A stretch of DNA of 64,000 nucleotides from assembly GCA_026745465.1 (NCBI GenBank), contig JACYXH010000310.1, positions 5,682,001 to 5,746,000 of the forward strand. The letters run 5' to 3'. Of this stretch, positions 1-19,802 are shown one piece after another. The number at the start of each line of letters is the position of its first letter. Position 1 is the first letter of the stretch. The notes under the pieces are model-generated. The model saw nothing but the letters and a program-made list of their open reading frames with translations. It was not told the DNA's origin and searched no databases. The position numbers and the translations under genes were made by a program. This DNA is from Lota lota (Eukaryota; Chordata; Actinopteri; Gadiformes; Lotidae).

Positions 1-43
1 TCTCTCTCTCTTATACTTTGTTTTGTTTCCTTGGACCATCCAG
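1..43 (+). other. ncam1: ncam1 intron end: pyrimidine tract and acceptor before MSD1 exon a
   Basis: The window opens inside an ncam1 intron. The first 43 bases are pyrimidine-rich (a TC run, then T-rich sequence) and end in CCATCCAG, a good 3' splice site for the 15-nt exon that follows. The upstream ncam1 exons (Ig domains and first FnIII domain) lie before the window. Confidence 0.55.
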
Positions 44-58
44 GGTATACTTTCACAA
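44..58 (+). CDS. ncam1: NCAM1 15-nt micro-exon, MSD1 exon a
   Basis: The exon is GGTATACTTTCACAA, flanked by a CAG acceptor with a pyrimidine tract and a near-perfect GTAAGT donor at 59-64. In mammals and birds the muscle-specific domain MSD1 of NCAM1 sits between the two FnIII domains and is built from exons of 15, 48, 42 and 3 nt; this one has exactly the 15-nt length and lies first in order. The next constitutive exon begins in phase 1 (GG GAA CCC), so this insert reads x|GG TAT ACT TTC ACA A|, giving Tyr-Thr-Phe-Thr after a junction residue, with no stop. Seen: length, splice sites and phase. Inferred: identity with MSD1a, since five codons are too few for homology alone. Confidence 0.6.
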
Positions 59-968
59 GTAAGTGTGCTTCTCTTCCCATCTCACCTTCATTATTTTCTA
101 TCGTGTTCCTTTATTTCCGCTACAGTTACACCGCCAGCAGCATTCATTTGAAGTCACCCGTTCTCTCAGTGCATAAAAATCTATATAATGATAGCAGGGA
201 AATGTTTCTATAATGGTATCGTATCATTGTGTTTCATTGCTTATAGCTTGAGCAAAAGAATAGGAAACAAATGACTCCCACTGAAATGCAGTTGTTTTAT
301 TCTGACTGCGTTCAAGTAATGGAAATATACTTTATTATTACATTTTCTTAGACCAGCCATTCATAAGTCTTGTCTCTTTCAACTTTTCCAGACAACATTC
401 CATTTCATTACACTAATGGGGATTCAGGTTTGTGTAGCTGTATATTCGGTTGGCTCATTTAAAACCCTGTAGCAAGTATTGATCATGCAGACCTAAACCC
501 CATTTACTCTACTCTTAAATGCTGTGTCTCTTTAAGTTGGTGGTAAGTTAAGACCTGCTTTATGTGTATATATTTTTTGCAGAAAGTGAAAAAAATACTT
601 TACCAGAGAAATGGCTTTGGTGCAATGTTTAGGAATACAAAACTTTCCAAAAATACAGCGGCAAGCTATTTTACACACATTTATCCATTTTAAAGTATCT
701 TCAATCGATCGTCCCTTCATTTCCTAAGGCTTCTAATGCAGAATAAGTAACATACACACACACACACACACAGCCATGGCTAGGTGTGAAGTCCAGGTGT
801 ACAGTTTGGGGTTCAGGGTGGATCTCCATAGCTTGCAGATAAATGATCAAGTAGAGAGAGAGAGAGAGAGAGAGAGTGAAATCAGAGAGTCAGTGATGTT
901 AGACCGATGCTGTCTGGAGATGGCTAGGGAGAGAAACGGCCACTCACCCTGTGTCCGCCATCTTTCAG
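59..968 (+). other. ncam1: ncam1 intron between MSD1 exons a and b
   Basis: The sequence is AT-rich intron with a short (CA)n at 755-772 and a (GA)n at 853-876. No coding signal or recognisable mobile element was seen. Confidence 0.55.
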
Positions 969-1016
969 CTGCACCAGAGACCTCAACCCCCATCCCTCCA
1001 ACCACTCTGCCCCTTA
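969..1016 (+). CDS. ncam1: NCAM1 48-nt exon, MSD1 exon b (Thr/Pro-rich hinge)
   Basis: An acceptor CATCTTTCAG at 959-968 and a strong donor GTGAGT at 1017 enclose exactly 48 nt, the known size of MSD1 exon b. Read in phase 1, as the neighbouring NCAM1 exons require, it gives APETSTPIPPTTLPL after a split codon. This is a Thr/Ser/Pro-rich, mucin-like stretch, and MSD1 is known as the O-glycosylated hinge of muscle NCAM between FnIII-1 and FnIII-2. Both ends are phase 1, so inclusion or skipping keeps the frame. Length, phase, order and composition all agree, so I regard this as a real alternative exon despite its small size. Confidence 0.75.
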
Positions 1017-1070
1017 GTGAGTATGCCTATCCAGAAGTGTGCGGTGTCTGCAATAACTCCCACAACTCTC

Positions 1071-1131
1071 TCTCTCTCTCTCTCTCTGTCACTCTTCCAC
1101 TCTCTCTCTCTGTCACTCTCCCACTCTCTCT
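1071..1131. repeat. (TC)n-rich microsatellite
   Basis: This is an interrupted CT/CTCT run (TCTC with GTCACTCTTCCAC interruptions) lying between MSD1 exon b and the candidate exon c. It supplies the pyrimidine-rich context upstream of 1155. Confidence 0.8.
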
Positions 1132-1155
1132 CCATCTCCTGCTTGGCTTCCCCAG

Positions 1156-1201
1156 CTAGCGTAGCCTCTCTCCCCATTATCAATGGCGCTGCCACAGAGA
1201 C
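1156..1201 (+). other. ncam1: Candidate MSD1 exon c, doubtful reading frame
   Basis: A very good acceptor (pyrimidine tract ending TTCCCCAG at 1155) leads into sequence reading x|CT AGC GTA GCC ..., i.e. SVASLPIINGAATET, up to a GTAATG donor at 1202. That gives 46 nt, which is not a multiple of three. Using the weaker AG at 1158-1159 gives 1160-1201, exactly the 42 nt known for MSD1 exon c, but in phase 1 that reading meets TAG at the second codon. The position directly after exon b fits exon c. I cannot tell whether the exon is decayed, carries an assembly indel, or is not used. Confidence 0.3.
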
Positions 1202-3668
1202 GTAATGTAGTGCCATGGAGCAGCATCACATTTCTGTTGGTGATCAAGATAATGGGTTTTAAAAAATACAGAGCAAACTAAAACAACAACAACAAAAAAC
1301 AAGCCGCCACACTACTAGCTTTTTGCTAACATTAGGCTATAGGCCCTCATGAATATCATCCCCCTAACATAAGCCTGGCGGCCCTTCTTTTATTTGATTC
1401 TCTTGTTCAATATTAACGGGAACACAGTGTGCATGGCTGTACATAAACCACGGTGGCATTGGGTTCACAATAACTCGCCCGATTTTCTAATTTGGAATGA
1501 AAATGTGGATCCTGTATGCTGTTTGCTTTACGTTTGGGTATTGCAACATGTCGGGCCAGTTTGACTTAAGTGTAACTCCCCTGGATGCATGCCGCTGTGT
1601 ACGAATATCAATAGAATATGTAGATAAAAAGAAGGGACCCTCCCACCCCACCCTGCAACCGTAGCAACTCTGTTCTAGATGGCTTGATAGTCACCCCTTT
1701 GTCTGTCTTACATTAAACACATAGAGGTGTCGTGAGCCGAATGTTGTTAGTGGCCAGTCGGCAGCTGTGATATACACTGTCCATAATGCCCACCACTCAG
1801 AGCCACAGAACAGCCACAATGTGCGAGAAATGGCTTTCATTGGTTTTTTGATCAGTCTTACTTTATCAGAATATAACAATGTCCAATGTGGTGAGGAGGC
1901 GCATGGCTTTATCCCAGAATGAAAAAAACTAAACACTTTGGCCTTTGAACAATTTTCAGAAACATCTTTTCATTAAAATGTGAAAGTATGTTTTAAGTAT
2001 ATTTTTTCCACAAGTGTTTGGTTGGAGGAATGACAATGAGTACTGGGCATTAAGAAGTGAATGAAGCATCTTCATAGAACAGTCAATTAGCTCAGCAGCA
2101 GCCGCTAGACCTAGAAAAAAATCAAGGTTATGGAAAGCCGAATGTGAGATGGGGGAATAAAAAAAATTAACATTGGTGAATGACTTCCAATTAAAAAGTA
2201 ATTTAAAGTTTTCCTCATACATTTGAGGATCTATTTTTAATTAAACGCAGGTTTTTTTTTACAGAAAGCAGCTGCATGCAAAAACATTTTACCCAACAAA
2301 ACAAAAACAACCCAACATATTTTTGGATTTGTTGTGTGGAGTGCATGTGTATGGAGTTATCTGCGATGCTAATGATCCTAGTTAGTTGTTTGCCCCCGTG
2401 TGTTGGTTTGATATAAAATCAAACCAGAAACTGACGATGTAGCCGTAGCATTTAGCATTTGGATGCTAATACCCGTTGTAGGTACTGTTTAGGAGTGTCC
2501 TTGTACTGACATAGTTTACTGACAAGAGTTTACTCTTGGGCTTGTCTCACTAACATGAGTATTGTCTGTATTTATTGCTGACTCATTTTGTGGTTCTTCA
2601 CACAAAATATAAATAGTATTTTGAGTGTGATGTTTATTTGGTCTGAACATTTGGTCGGTAAGTAAATGCAATGTTGAAATGTTTTACTTTAATTTGAAAT
2701 GTATAATGATGTTTGATGCAGCTGTTCCAGAGATGCCACCTAACCACATTGAAAAATTTATTAACTGATATTTATTATATCAAATACACACCTGTTACAC
2801 CTGTTTCGAATTGATTGCAGCTAAATGCTTGCTCTACTCTACTGTACAAGTATGTGATGCCATGCACCTAGTCATACTTGTACAAAAGGAGACTGGGGAG
2901 GTTAAATCGTACAAATGATTTTAACCAAAACCTTCATATTGATGTAAATCGTTTTTTCCCTAATCCTCCATCTGTTCATCCTGTTGTTCTGCAGAGTTGT
3001 GTATCATTGCCAACTGTCGCATAATAGGCAGCTGCATTGCCTATTATGCAGACTTCCCCCTGTTGTATTTATTCACTCCATGGCTTTTTAAGCATAGCTT
3101 GCAATGTTCACAATTATACTTTTCATAAAGATTTTATAAATCTATACTGTATTGCCCATCAGGAAGATTCTTGAATTTTCAAACATCAATTGCTCTCTGA
3201 AACAAATCCAGGAATGGGCAATTTAAATTCAGTTTTGTATTATAATAATGTGAAATGATAAGCGATTGATGCTGGATGCATGGTGCAGTCCCAGACCTTT
3301 GTATACGTTTGTTTGTAACATAGCAATAACAACAAATTATTAACTGTTTAGAATTAACTCAACTCAACGTCTGCAAATGCACCATACATTCAGCTGATTT
3401 TGTTTTTTTATTTTTAATAAATTAATTATATTTATGTACCACTTTGTTTTTTGTGTTCCCGTTTATGTTTTTTAATTTTGTCATTAACATACATTTTCGT
3501 TAATTCCCCATGTTTACATCATTTCCAATTTGTTTTATGTCTTCCATGTGACCCTCCCCCCCCCCCACCCCTCCCTTACCTTTCAACCAATCATGTGCGT
3601 GCGTTTCATATGACTTTGTCATGTGGCTCTTGCATGGTGCTGATGATGTCGTCTTCGCTGATGAACAG
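1202..3668 (+). other. ncam1: ncam1 intron, no gene seen
   Basis: AT-rich intron without a convincing exon or recognised mobile element. Short open frames on both strands (for example 1691-1936 and 1956-2222 on the - strand) show no protein-like composition. Confidence 0.5.
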
Positions 3669-3671
3669 AAG
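3669..3671 (+). CDS. ncam1: NCAM1 AAG triplet micro-exon (MSD1)
   Basis: The sequence GAACAG|AAG|GTAAAA has a 3-nt AAG between an AG acceptor (3667-3668) and a GT donor (3672-3673). Mammalian NCAM1 has a famous AAG exon at this place, just before the first exon of FnIII-2. Inserting AAG at a phase-1 junction (C|GG) changes an Arg codon into Gln-Gly, as in human versus mouse NCAM isoforms, and the exon at 6714 starts with GG GAA exactly as this requires. The upstream pyrimidine tract is weak and a 3-nt match is little evidence alone. Confidence comes from position, phase and the other MSD1 exons. Confidence 0.45.
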
Positions 3672-6600
3672 GTAAAATCATTTTGCTTAGTTTAAGAACT
3701 CAAAACCACCCCCGATCATTTAGAGCCTATTTAGACATATAGCATTAGATGTGACATTAGCAACATCATGTTTTATTTATTATTGTGTAAAACTTTTATT
3801 TGCAGTCAAAATTATAGTCTAGAATTATTCATTTATTTTCTTTTTTTTGGCAACCTGCACTCATCTAGTCCATCACCTTTGACATTGCCTCCATTTCTCC
3901 CTCCAGTCATTTCACTACTAGGTGATCTCACTGGACAACATGTCGTCCATCTTACACGCAGTGAACTAAAAGTCCTCTCTGCTGCCCACAAGTGCCTTTC
4001 TATTTGGTCACAGGCTAGTTTGAGTTGGAGGAAACCAAGGTAGCTAAATTGGTCTCAAACATTAGGGATCACACTTTGAACATCGCACTTGCAGGTTTTT
4101 TTGAACGATTGCCACAGGTTGCAGTCTGCATCGCACGCACATCTTATTTCCCTTTTTTCCATGTGTGCTAAACTAACCCTAATCTCCTCTCCTCTTTCCC
4201 TTAACCTTTTTTGTTAAATCCTTTTATAACAAAATAACTAACAGCACTATGGAACTGACTCCTTCACTGCATGTTTGTATCCTACTAATTTCAGCTGTCT
4301 CCTGACTCTGCAGTCCAGCCCGTTAGCATGTTTGTTCTGACGTTCACATCTAATTGATGTGCCTCTTATGTTATTCCCATGTTGGGGTGACTGTTTGATG
4401 AGTTATTTGACATATGAGTGTCATTAGCCACACATCTGGTGTGAGGGTAAGGGTGATTACAAATGAATGACCAAGTTGAAGTTGTAAACAATTATTTCTA
4501 ATCAGTGTCATACTTTATGCTAATCAATGTCAAACGTGGAACAGAAGATAAATGGAAACTGTACCACGTCAAAACAGCATGAGGAGCAAATTTCTTCAAC
4601 TTCCAATGTCTAATTCCAAAAAGTGATGTATGGGTTTTTGATGCCTGAAATACTTGTACAGTTATTGTTGCATTAGATGACTGACATAAAAAAAACATAT
4701 TAACATCCAAATCATGCCAAAAAGAATAACAAAGGTGTGTTCCACAAAGTGCATGGTGATAGGGCTCATGTATTTAACCTCTCTCTCTCTATTTCGAGCT
4801 CTCTCACTCTCACTCTCTCACACTTAGCCATCTTGGATTCTGTGCTTAAGCGATTGTGACAATCATGAAAAAACCTTCTTGCCATTCTGTCTAAAGTCAC
4901 AGTTCGACTGCTGCTCTTATCTCTAACTCCATTCTTTCTAGTTCTGGCATCTGCCACTGCTTACTCCAGGAGAATGTTCAGATTGCATTTTCAAAAGATT
5001 GTAACCCTAAAATTGGCCTACGACCAAAAACGATCAGAGGTCCCTATGTCCATTTATATTTTTTCCAGTGTTAACGGATTTTGATGGTGCAGAGATAATT
5101 AAGGAAAATGAACCATTACGAAAATCATGACGAAGAACCATAAAGTGCTTGAGAAGAATTAATGTTTGCCCCAAAATTAACAAATATGGAAATATGTCTG
5201 ATTGCTCACTAAAACACAACATTTCACATTCCAGTAGAATTGTAAATCATCATATTTGTTGTGTGTTGTTTTGGTTTAACAATACTCCAAGCTACACAAC
5301 AATAATTCTACTTCCAAAACAGAGTAATACATTTGGAATAATTGCAACATATTTTCGCCAGATTGTGAGTTTCACAATCTCGGTTTGCTTTTCCCAAGCT
5401 GTAGCTCATATTATATATCTCTATAGACTACAAAACATTAATGCTGAAGTTCATGAGATGCAGAAGACATGTGTTTACAAATGTAAATCGCAAAACAAAT
5501 GGCGTAAAGAAGCAAACGCAGAAATAATCCAAAGCTTACCGTGCGTACGCCTTGATAATTCGATTCTGCATTCATGGTGTCAGCCCCTGAACCTGAAAAA
5601 CACATCAATTGGAGAGCATACAAGTGGCATCAGTACACAAATGCTGATGTGTATTCACACCCCCAACACACACACACACACACACACAGCTTCTTGACCT
5701 TTCTGATCTCCAGACTACATTAACGTTATTAGAAGTAATAGAGTAACACATCCAATCAAGATACGCAGACTCATTATCTGCCGTGGCCTTTCATTATCCC
5801 AGAGGGGGCCCGGGGCCCGATTAAACAGATGCTCATTGAGAATAATGCCCTGCCGGCTCACATACGTCACACATGTGAATATAGCTGTGTGCCCACGCCA
5901 AGAAAATGCCAACGTTCCCAGCTTAAAGACCTTGCCCACCTGAAAATAAATTGTCTATGATTTGTTTCGAAAAAGAAAAGAAAGTTGTTGAATAAAAAGA
6001 TTGAATCATTTATATAAAATAGTGTAATCGTATATATGTAAATCTTTTCCGAAAAATATAAAAAGGCTACCGCAAAAAGTATTAATAGGCAACGGCAAAT
6101 GACCGCACAGTTTAATTACACTAAATATTATTCTATATATATTCAGTCAATCAGCTTGTGTGAGGATTCTTCTTTTCCCACCAATCACAGGCCTCCCACT
6201 TTGATTGGTAGAAAATAAAGAGGAAGAGGCCGTTCTTTCTCTGCTTGTCATGCTGGAGAGAAAGAGCCCTGCCAGATTATTCAGCACTAATATTAAAAGT
6301 GACAGGTGAAAGATGGGTTTCATTATCTCCTATTCCTGCCAATTGATTTAGGAGAAGAGGGGGTGGGGAGGGGGGGTAGTGAGCGTAATGTATTCTGTTT
6401 CTCACGATTACATTTTAGCATCCATTTTGTGGTTCAAGAGATTAATCTGAGTGGACACAACCTTTAAAAGTCTTGATACGTCACGACGTGATGAAACGCA
6501 TCCTTGAATTTTTGACAGATTGTCCTCTGCATCGTGCGTCTTTATTGGAATACCTGTTACCAATTTGACAAGGACACATGAAAAAAACAAGCAATCAGAT

Positions 6601-6713: not shown

Positions 6714-6838
6714 GGGAACCCAGTGCACCCAAGCTGGAGGCCAAGGTGCAGAAGAAGGGTAACACCCTCAAGGTGAACTGGTTGAAGCAGGATGACGGAG
6801 GCACCCCAATCAAGCACTACCTGATCAGATACAAACCT
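6714..6838 (+). CDS. ncam1: NCAM1 exon: first half of second fibronectin III domain
   Basis: The exon reads (x)|GG GAA CCC ... and encodes GEPSAPKLEA followed by NTLKVNWLKQDDGG and ending HYLIRYKP. This is the N-terminal half of NCAM1 FnIII-2 and very close to the mammalian sequence (GEPSAPKLEG, IKQDDGGSPIRHYLVRY). NCAM1 is a homophilic neural cell-adhesion molecule of the Ig superfamily at the plasma membrane; the FnIII domains lie next to the membrane and interact with FGFR. It starts in phase 1 after CCCAG and ends in phase 0 before GTGAGT (6839). Length is 125 nt. The phase-1 start is what allows the MSD1 cassette to be inserted in frame. Confidence 0.95.
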
Positions 6839-7335: not shown

Positions 7336-7516
7336 AAGCACGTGTCTGACTGGAAGCCCGAGATCCGCGTGCCGCACGGCAGCGACTACGTTGTGCTCCA
7401 GGCGCTGGACTGGAACACCGAGTATGAGGTGTACGTGGTGGCCGAGAACCAGCTGGGCAAGTCCAAGCCCGGCATGGTCTCCTTCAGGACAGCCACGCAG
7501 CCCACCGCCATCCCAG
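7336..7516 (+). CDS. ncam1: NCAM1 exon: second half of second fibronectin III domain
   Basis: The exon follows CCTCCAG and encodes KHVSDWKPEIRVPHGSDYVV, then LDWNTEYEVYVVAENQLGKS and ending QPTAIP plus one base. It matches the second half of NCAM1 FnIII-2 (human WKPEIRLPSGSDHV, LDWNAEYEVYVVAENQQGKSK). It has the FnIII signature Tyr-x-Val-x-Val-x-Ala near the F strand. Length is 181 nt; it starts in phase 0 and ends in phase 1 at a GTACGG donor. Downstream it can join either the GPI exon at 10121 or the transmembrane exon at 18024; both begin with two bases that complete the split codon. Confidence 0.96.
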
Positions 7517-18023: not shown

Positions 18024-18225
18024 ACGTGGGGGGCTCAGGCCTTGGGACGGGCGCCATCGTGGGCATCCTGATGGTGGTCTTTCTGCTGCTGCTGGTGGGC
18101 GTGGACGTCACCTGCTACTTCCTCAACAAGTGCGGCCTTCTCATGTGCATCGCCGTCAACTTCTGCGGCAAGGCGGGCCCCGGGGCCAAAGGCAAGGACA
18201 TTGAGGAGGGCAAAGCCGCGTTTAC
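18024..18225 (+). CDS. ncam1: NCAM1 transmembrane exon
   Basis: Two bases complete an Asp codon, then VGGSGLGTGAIVG begins the membrane segment GILMVVFLLLLVGVDVTC, followed by YFLNKCGLLMCIAVNFCG and KAGPGAKGKDIEEGKAAF. This matches NCAM1 (human LSTGAIVGILIVIFVLLLVVVDITCYFLNKCG) closely. The four juxtamembrane cysteines, palmitoylation sites in NCAM-140 and -180 that affect raft targeting, are all present. The exon is 202 nt, starting in phase 1 and ending in phase 2 (TTT AC|GTGAGT). It is used in the 140 and 180 forms in place of the GPI exon. Confidence 0.96.
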
Positions 18226-18230
18226 GTGAG

Positions 18231-19071: not shown

Positions 19072-19188
19072 AAAAGATGAATCCAAGGAGCCCATTGTGG
19101 AGGTGAGGACAGAGGAGGAGAACACCCCCAACCAGGAGGGAGGTGCTCCCACAGAGCCCAGCGAGACCACCCCTTTGACTGAGCCTGA
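19072..19188 (+). CDS. ncam1: NCAM1 cytoplasmic exon common to the 140 and 180 forms
   Basis: After CACAG one base completes a Thr codon, then [20 protein letters not shown] and an ending ETTPLTEPE. The mammalian equivalent is [20 protein letters not shown] and [13 protein letters not shown]. This cytoplasmic segment is shared by NCAM-140 and -180. The exon is 117 nt with phase 2 on both sides; the donor is GTGAGT at 19189. From here the transcript joins either the NCAM-180 cassette at 19803 or the last exon at about 25068. Confidence 0.96.
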
Positions 19189-19802
19189 GTGAGTACCTCT
19201 GCCACAGCCAGGGGCAGGCCCATCCACTACCCACTTATAGCAGAATAGGTCTATGTGTGTCTATGGACATTGTTGTTTGTCTGAACACACTTATGGTAGA
19301 CTTAAAGCCTATTGCAATGCTTAGGGCCCAGTGCCCGAGCCCCATTTGCGAGTGATTTCCATATAATGGTAGGGGAAATGTGGTTCTTAGTTCAAAGAAC
19401 TAAACTAAATACTCCTGGGTCGGTTCAAGGTTTGCTATCCTGATCCTGAGTCATGTCAGTAAGCATGCCTCTCTTTGATTTTGTCATTTTTTTTCAAGAT
19501 GTATGATTTTGTCACTAACTATTGACACTTGAACACCAAGGCCTCGGTAACACTCGCTCTTTGTTCTTGCTTCAGAAAGACTCTTTGTTCTCCCGTAACG
19601 AACAAACCTCCCTCGATGCACAACACTCTAAATTCTCTCTTCTCTGCTCTCCTTGTCTCTCTCGCTCTCTCTTCATCTCTCCTCGGGTGATCTGTCTTTT
19701 GTCTCCACTCCCCCACCCACTTATTCCTTCCTCTACCACCACAACACCCTTCCACCACCTCCCCCACTTCCTCACATCTTCCACCCACTCACCCCCCATC
19801 AG
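19189..19802 (+). other. ncam1: ncam1 intron before the NCAM-180 cassette
   Basis: Intron of 614 nt. Its second half is C/T-rich (19620-19800) and ends in CCCCCATCAG. Frames overlapping it run on into the next exon without a stop but are not themselves coding. Confidence 0.85.

Follow-up and report, generated by a model that had tools for sequence, protein, structure and literature searches.

Small phase-1 exons between FN1 and FN2 in two NCAM1 genes of a fish: a probable teleost form of the NCAM1 hinge cassette

In a fish NCAM1 gene, the intron that separates the coding exons for FN1 from those for FN2 very likely carries a teleost form of the NCAM1 hinge cassette, judged here from genomic sequence: a set of small, probably optional phase-1 exons of 15 nt, 36 nt and the triplet AAG. 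The set recurs, as 15 nt, 33 nt and AAG, in a second NCAM1 gene of the same fish; the three exons are therefore very probably genuine, with an origin before the gene duplication. On the best reading, the AAG exon would be common to fish and mammals, and the other fish exons are of uncertain kinship.

In amniotes, the MSD1 cassette consists of exons a, b, c and AAG between exons 12 and 13, with lengths of 15, 48, 42 and 3 nt; the third exon is shorter in chick (27 versus 42 nt). Mammalian FN1-FN2 linkers are described with the variants R, QG, HSPPPQG or longer at exactly this joint, from which it follows that mammalian exon a codes for HSPPP, and the joint has been suggested to be a flexible hinge altered by splicing (PMC2267215).

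Results

Locus and gene identity

The window, the whole stretch of 64 000 nucleotides that was analysed, is C310:5682001-5746000 of a 575-Mb fish genome and begins within the NCAM1 intron that divides FN1 from FN2. NCAM1 exons follow one another in the order Ig4, Ig5, FN1 (two exons) and FN2 (two exons) over the 20 kb before the window (L003 and L002) and its first 8 kb. Exon 12 (L002:7879-8004) ends with GTCC before the donor GTAAGT, in phase 1, one base into a codon; the first half of FN2, exon 13, lies at 6714-6838 and the next exon, the second half of FN2, at 7336-7516, both on the plus strand. Also on the plus strand, the transmembrane segment (18044-18226) and a cytoplasmic segment (19073-19189) match human pieces at 83.6% and 84.6%, respectively, the coordinates being those of the matches and not of exon bounds. 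Among solved structures, the FN tandem of the window gene matches human NCAM1 best (253.6 bits, versus 136.6 for the best NCAM2 entry), and an earlier note on this DNA was right in naming the gene as NCAM1. The exon 12-13 intron measures 8709 bases; exon 12 joined straight to exon 13 gives the linker PVREPSAPKLE, which is the shortest human form. Long poly-C tracts lie soon past the exon 12 donor (L002:8012-8181), and the second NCAM1 gene, too, has a C-run after exon 12. No relative of the FN2 exon was confirmed among the viral and prokaryote contigs searched.

The second NCAM1 gene was found on the minus strand of C763 (FN tandem: NCAM1 238.6 bits, NCAM2 140.6). The FN tandems of the two genes are 61% identical in an alignment with seven gap positions that are partly an artefact, a few residues at an exon joint being absent from the second-gene peptide. 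Zebrafish are reported to have two Ncam1 genes that originated in the teleost genome duplication (PMC7841142), and we infer that the present genes are the same pair.

The VASE exon of NCAM1, 30 nt long, encodes an ASWTRPEKQE-like peptide in Ig4 and precedes the second Ig4 exon. As a control, it was located by this peptide in both fish genes as 30 nt between AG and GT (ASWTRPDTYE at L003:7324-7353; ASWTRPEQHK in the second gene), and the gene pair thus retains known optional exons.

Splice-bounded segments

Splice sites were scored with simple weight matrices, and scores are given as acceptor/donor. At a loose threshold, 38 segments of 3-150 nt pass in the window intron, ten of them in frame and open; the FN1-FN2 intron of the second gene (4928 bases) contains 14 splice-bounded segments, six in frame and open. 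Three segments named in the earlier note, AG/15/GT at 44-58, AG/48/GT at 969-1016 and AG/AAG/GT at 3669-3671, exist as described and all lie in the exon 12-13 intron; the scan also found the 15-nt and 48-nt segments open in phase 1, as had been claimed. Among the 38, the 15-mer ranks second, a 36-mer third, the 48-mer 23rd and AAG 31st, so that splice sites by themselves decide nothing. In the second gene the AAG exon ranks first, the 15-mer second and a 33-mer fourth, and the exon order (15, 36/33, AAG) is identical in both genes. Segments with good splice scores that lacked a partner in the second gene were dropped, among them an 87-mer that precedes the window and the 15-mer at 3907-3921.

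The 15-nt microexon

The 15-nt phase-1 microexon (44-58, plus strand) reads GGTATACTTTCACAA up to the donor GTAAGT and would encode R-YTFT-R. Its splice scores are strong (4.5/5.1, sum 9.6), and 400 kb of null strands contained no equally good 15-mer. The second gene has GTTATTCACTCTCAA before the same donor GTAAGT; the two 15-mers agree at 10 of 15 bases, and the peptides are RYTFTR in the window gene and RYSLSR in the second. Read in phase 1, the codons pair as R with R (CGG, CGT), Y with Y, T with S, F with L, T with S and R with R, giving a BLOSUM sum of 19, compared with 7 and 11 in the other phases. The null strands and its conservation in the second gene put this segment beyond chance. 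A long (CT)n tract lies directly upstream (window 1-12 and about L002:9918-10000) and has no counterpart there in the second gene; it could bind a PTBP-type repressor or be a plain microsatellite like others in the window.

The 36/33-nt exon

A 36-nt phase-1 exon at 392-427 (plus strand; H-NIPFHYTNGDS-G) is absent from the earlier note. Its splice scores (6.9/1.5) are better than those of the 48-mer, and its partner in the second gene is a 33-mer ending with CAG before GTTTGT. With one hand-placed gap of three bases (a whole codon), 22 of 33 aligned bases match. Four residue changes (I/M, Y/F, D/E, S/T) are conservative and three (N/G, N/T, G/E) are not; in both genes, phase 2 is interrupted by a stop. 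A genome search with the 36-mer returned only itself, such counts being lower bounds. The 36/33-mer could answer to mammalian exon b, to exon c or to neither.

The AAG microexon

The AAG triplet (3669-3671, plus strand) would change the linker Arg to Gln-Gly, and the same triplet exon is present in the second gene; AG/AAG/GT occurs exactly once in the FN1-FN2 intron of each. Its splice scores are weak in the window (1.0/3.0, sum 4.0) and higher in the second gene (4.3/4.3, sum 8.5). Null sequence of 400 kb yielded 20 AAG sites, of which one is as good as that of the window, one reaches the sum of 8.5 and none has both scores at or above 4.2. The 20 intron bases directly upstream of the AAG exon agree between the two genes at 11 positions (best of the 20 null sites, 10), and TCTTC stands at -17 of both AAG exons and at none of the null sites. 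Within 250 bases, each AAG exon has TGCATG upstream (-38 and -114), a motif that the other five exons scanned lack nearby; apart from TGCATG and TCTTC at the AAG exons, splicing motifs within that distance form no pattern common to both genes. The genome search found the AAG exon itself only (again a lower bound). From the genomic comparison, the AAG exon is judged probably genuine in the window gene and very probably so in its counterpart. The earlier note was right about a triplet exon, which in both fish genes would give the change known from mammals (R to QG); that the one in the window goes beyond chance is probable.

Chance tests on the gene pair

Splice-bounded segments of the two introns that are open in phase 1 were compared by alignment score minus the forced AG and GT, and 80 null blocks were taken from 20 other stretches of one contig, on both strands; both pairs were known before this null test was designed. 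At strict thresholds (4 by 4 candidates) the two top pairs have scores of 10.0 and 8.0, followed by -4.0, whereas the best of the 80 null blocks reaches 3.0. When the thresholds are loosened (12 by 5 candidates), the two pairs in collinear order add up to 18. Set against the 80 null blocks, the window intron reaches at most 7.0 for a pair and 6.0 for a sum; the corresponding values for the second gene intron against 40 null blocks are 5.0 and -6.0. None of 3040 comparisons between unrelated blocks attains 18 as a sum (maximum 11), and with only 20 stretches behind the blocks these comparisons are not independent; single pairs of at least 8 occur in eight of them and of at least 10 in four.

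Eight intron pairs of the two genes were scanned in the same way: six are without a candidate pair, the VASE intron has one chance pair at -13, and positive pairs occur in intron 12 only. The control by other introns is weak because most of the six are short and offer few or no candidates. The true VASE pair was missed by the strict scan because the VASE donor of the second gene (0.3) falls below the threshold of 0.5, and the scan can therefore miss true exons. Whole-intron blastn between the two genes did not single the exons out among the best 40 hits, the 36-nt (E 0.12) and 15-nt (E 0.37) matches standing level with several others.

Discussion

Alternative readings

That the matches are chance splice-like segments is highly improbable. 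The introns are long and repeat-rich, and single pairs this good do occur in null sequence (8 of 3040 comparisons), but the two-pair score was never reached there, and order, phase, donors and triplet are the same in both genes. That the fish has a nearly complete orthologue of MSD1 (a, b, AAG), with an O-glycosylated hinge of muscle type, as the earlier note reads it, is unlikely. This reading draws on the right intron and phase, a 15-nt first exon, an AAG last exon and a Thr/Pro-rich 48-mer. The fish 15-mer does agree with exon a in length, phase and first place, so that kinship is possible from the sequences compared, but none of five residues is alike (RYTFT versus HSPPP), and the proposed equation with exon a stands in the former respects only. 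The 48-mer is weakly bounded and absent from the second gene, and the place expected for exon b is occupied by the 36/33-nt exon. The argument from the order 15, 48, AAG is not supported, because this conserved 36-nt exon sits between the 15-mer and the 48-mer. The conserved set is 15, 36/33 and 3 nt; a complete or nearly complete MSD1 is unsupported, and exact identity with MSD1 on the basis of lengths alone was rejected.

More tentatively, all four exons (15, 36, 48 and AAG; 102 nt in total) might be real and the 48-mer lost from the second gene, in which case fish 36 and 48 would correspond to mammalian b and c with changed lengths; we regard this as possible, though doubtful, and it depends on the unproven candidate exon at 969-1016 (plus strand). 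In its favour, the segment is open in phase 1, and open 48-nt segments are expected by chance only 0.02 times per intron at its own scores and 0.09 times at laxer ones (one and four null cases); none of 50 null open 48-mers with an acceptor score of at least 2 is as rich in Thr, Pro and Ser. Against it, shuffled versions of the segment are equally rich in 5.8% of cases and a share of 0.6 is reached by 3 of 43 null 48-mers that are C-rich, the length of 48 nt had been sought beforehand, and the donor score is 1.05 (3.6/1.05, sum 4.6, moderate). Even at low thresholds the second gene intron offers no Thr/Pro-rich partner (eight candidates, highest share 0.33). The 48-mer lies directly before (CT)n repeats, and a genome search found itself only (counts being lower bounds). 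Of the Thr/Pro-rich exon b claimed earlier, the bounds, the open phase and the composition were found; the rank of 23 among 38, the weak donor, the absence of a partner and the richness of shuffled bases leave it unproven as an exon, with a composition largely explained by C-richness. A plausible reading that falls a little short of probable is that the fish cassette is its own and ancient: the FH[YF]T-containing 36/33-nt exon and the Y[TS][FL][TS] microexon would have no amniote counterpart, AAG alone would be common vertebrate stock, and the hinge inserts would have arisen or diverged separately.

Proposed function and significance

Under the preferred reading of a teleost hinge cassette with exons of 15 and 36 nt and AAG, any combination would keep the frame, because each exon is a multiple of three and exon 12 ends on the first codon base. 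Were no small exon included, the linker would read PVREPSAP; AAG alone would give PVQGEPSAP, and all three together PVRYTFTNNIPFHYTNGDSEGEPSAP, 18 residues beyond the shortest form. The small exons may be spliced alternatively and by tissue. With them inserted, the FN1-FN2 hinge would become longer and looser, which might tune adhesion or receptor contact, the longer linker freeing the two FN domains.

An AAG exon common to two fish NCAM1 genes and to mammals would date NCAM1 hinge splicing before the fish-tetrapod split, and the other exons raise the question whether fish and amniotes share muscle-type NCAM hinges by common inheritance or put them together in different ways. No description of an NCAM1 hinge cassette in a fish was found among the titles and abstract openings listed, and the word ncam is absent from the main text of two zebrafish microexon papers (PMC12626424, PMC12626420). 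An Ncam1 microexon is reported in mouse, together with 402 mouse-zebrafish microexon pairs, in a study according to which microexons under 10 nt, the size class of AAG, are lost by common read aligners (PMC7821500); the zebrafish AAG exon or other exons may already stand in its tables.

Comparison with known systems

The fish cassette resembles MSD1 of amniote NCAM1 in its position in the same intron, in phase 1, in exon lengths that are multiples of three, in the AAG exon (R to QG) and in the 15-nt first exon. It differs in that the 15-nt exon encodes YTFT/YSLS and not HSPPP, the conserved second exon measures 36/33 nt, and no Thr/Pro-rich exon is conserved; the conserved fish order is 15-36/33-AAG, that of mammals 15-48-42-AAG.

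VASE, too, is a short optional NCAM1 exon that keeps the frame, and it is present in both fish genes. It belongs to another domain, and its peptide begins with ASWTRP as in mammals; the peptide of the 15-mer, by contrast, disagrees with exon a.

Vertebrate neural microexons are described as having UGC and a UC tract upstream (PMC12626420). Unlike these, the window 15-mer, the window 36-mer, the second-gene 15-mer and the 33-mer have TGC counts of 0, 1, 1 and 0, respectively, in the 100 bases upstream; like them, the fish exons are very short and in frame, and in the second gene both TCTTC and TGC lie close upstream of the AAG exon.
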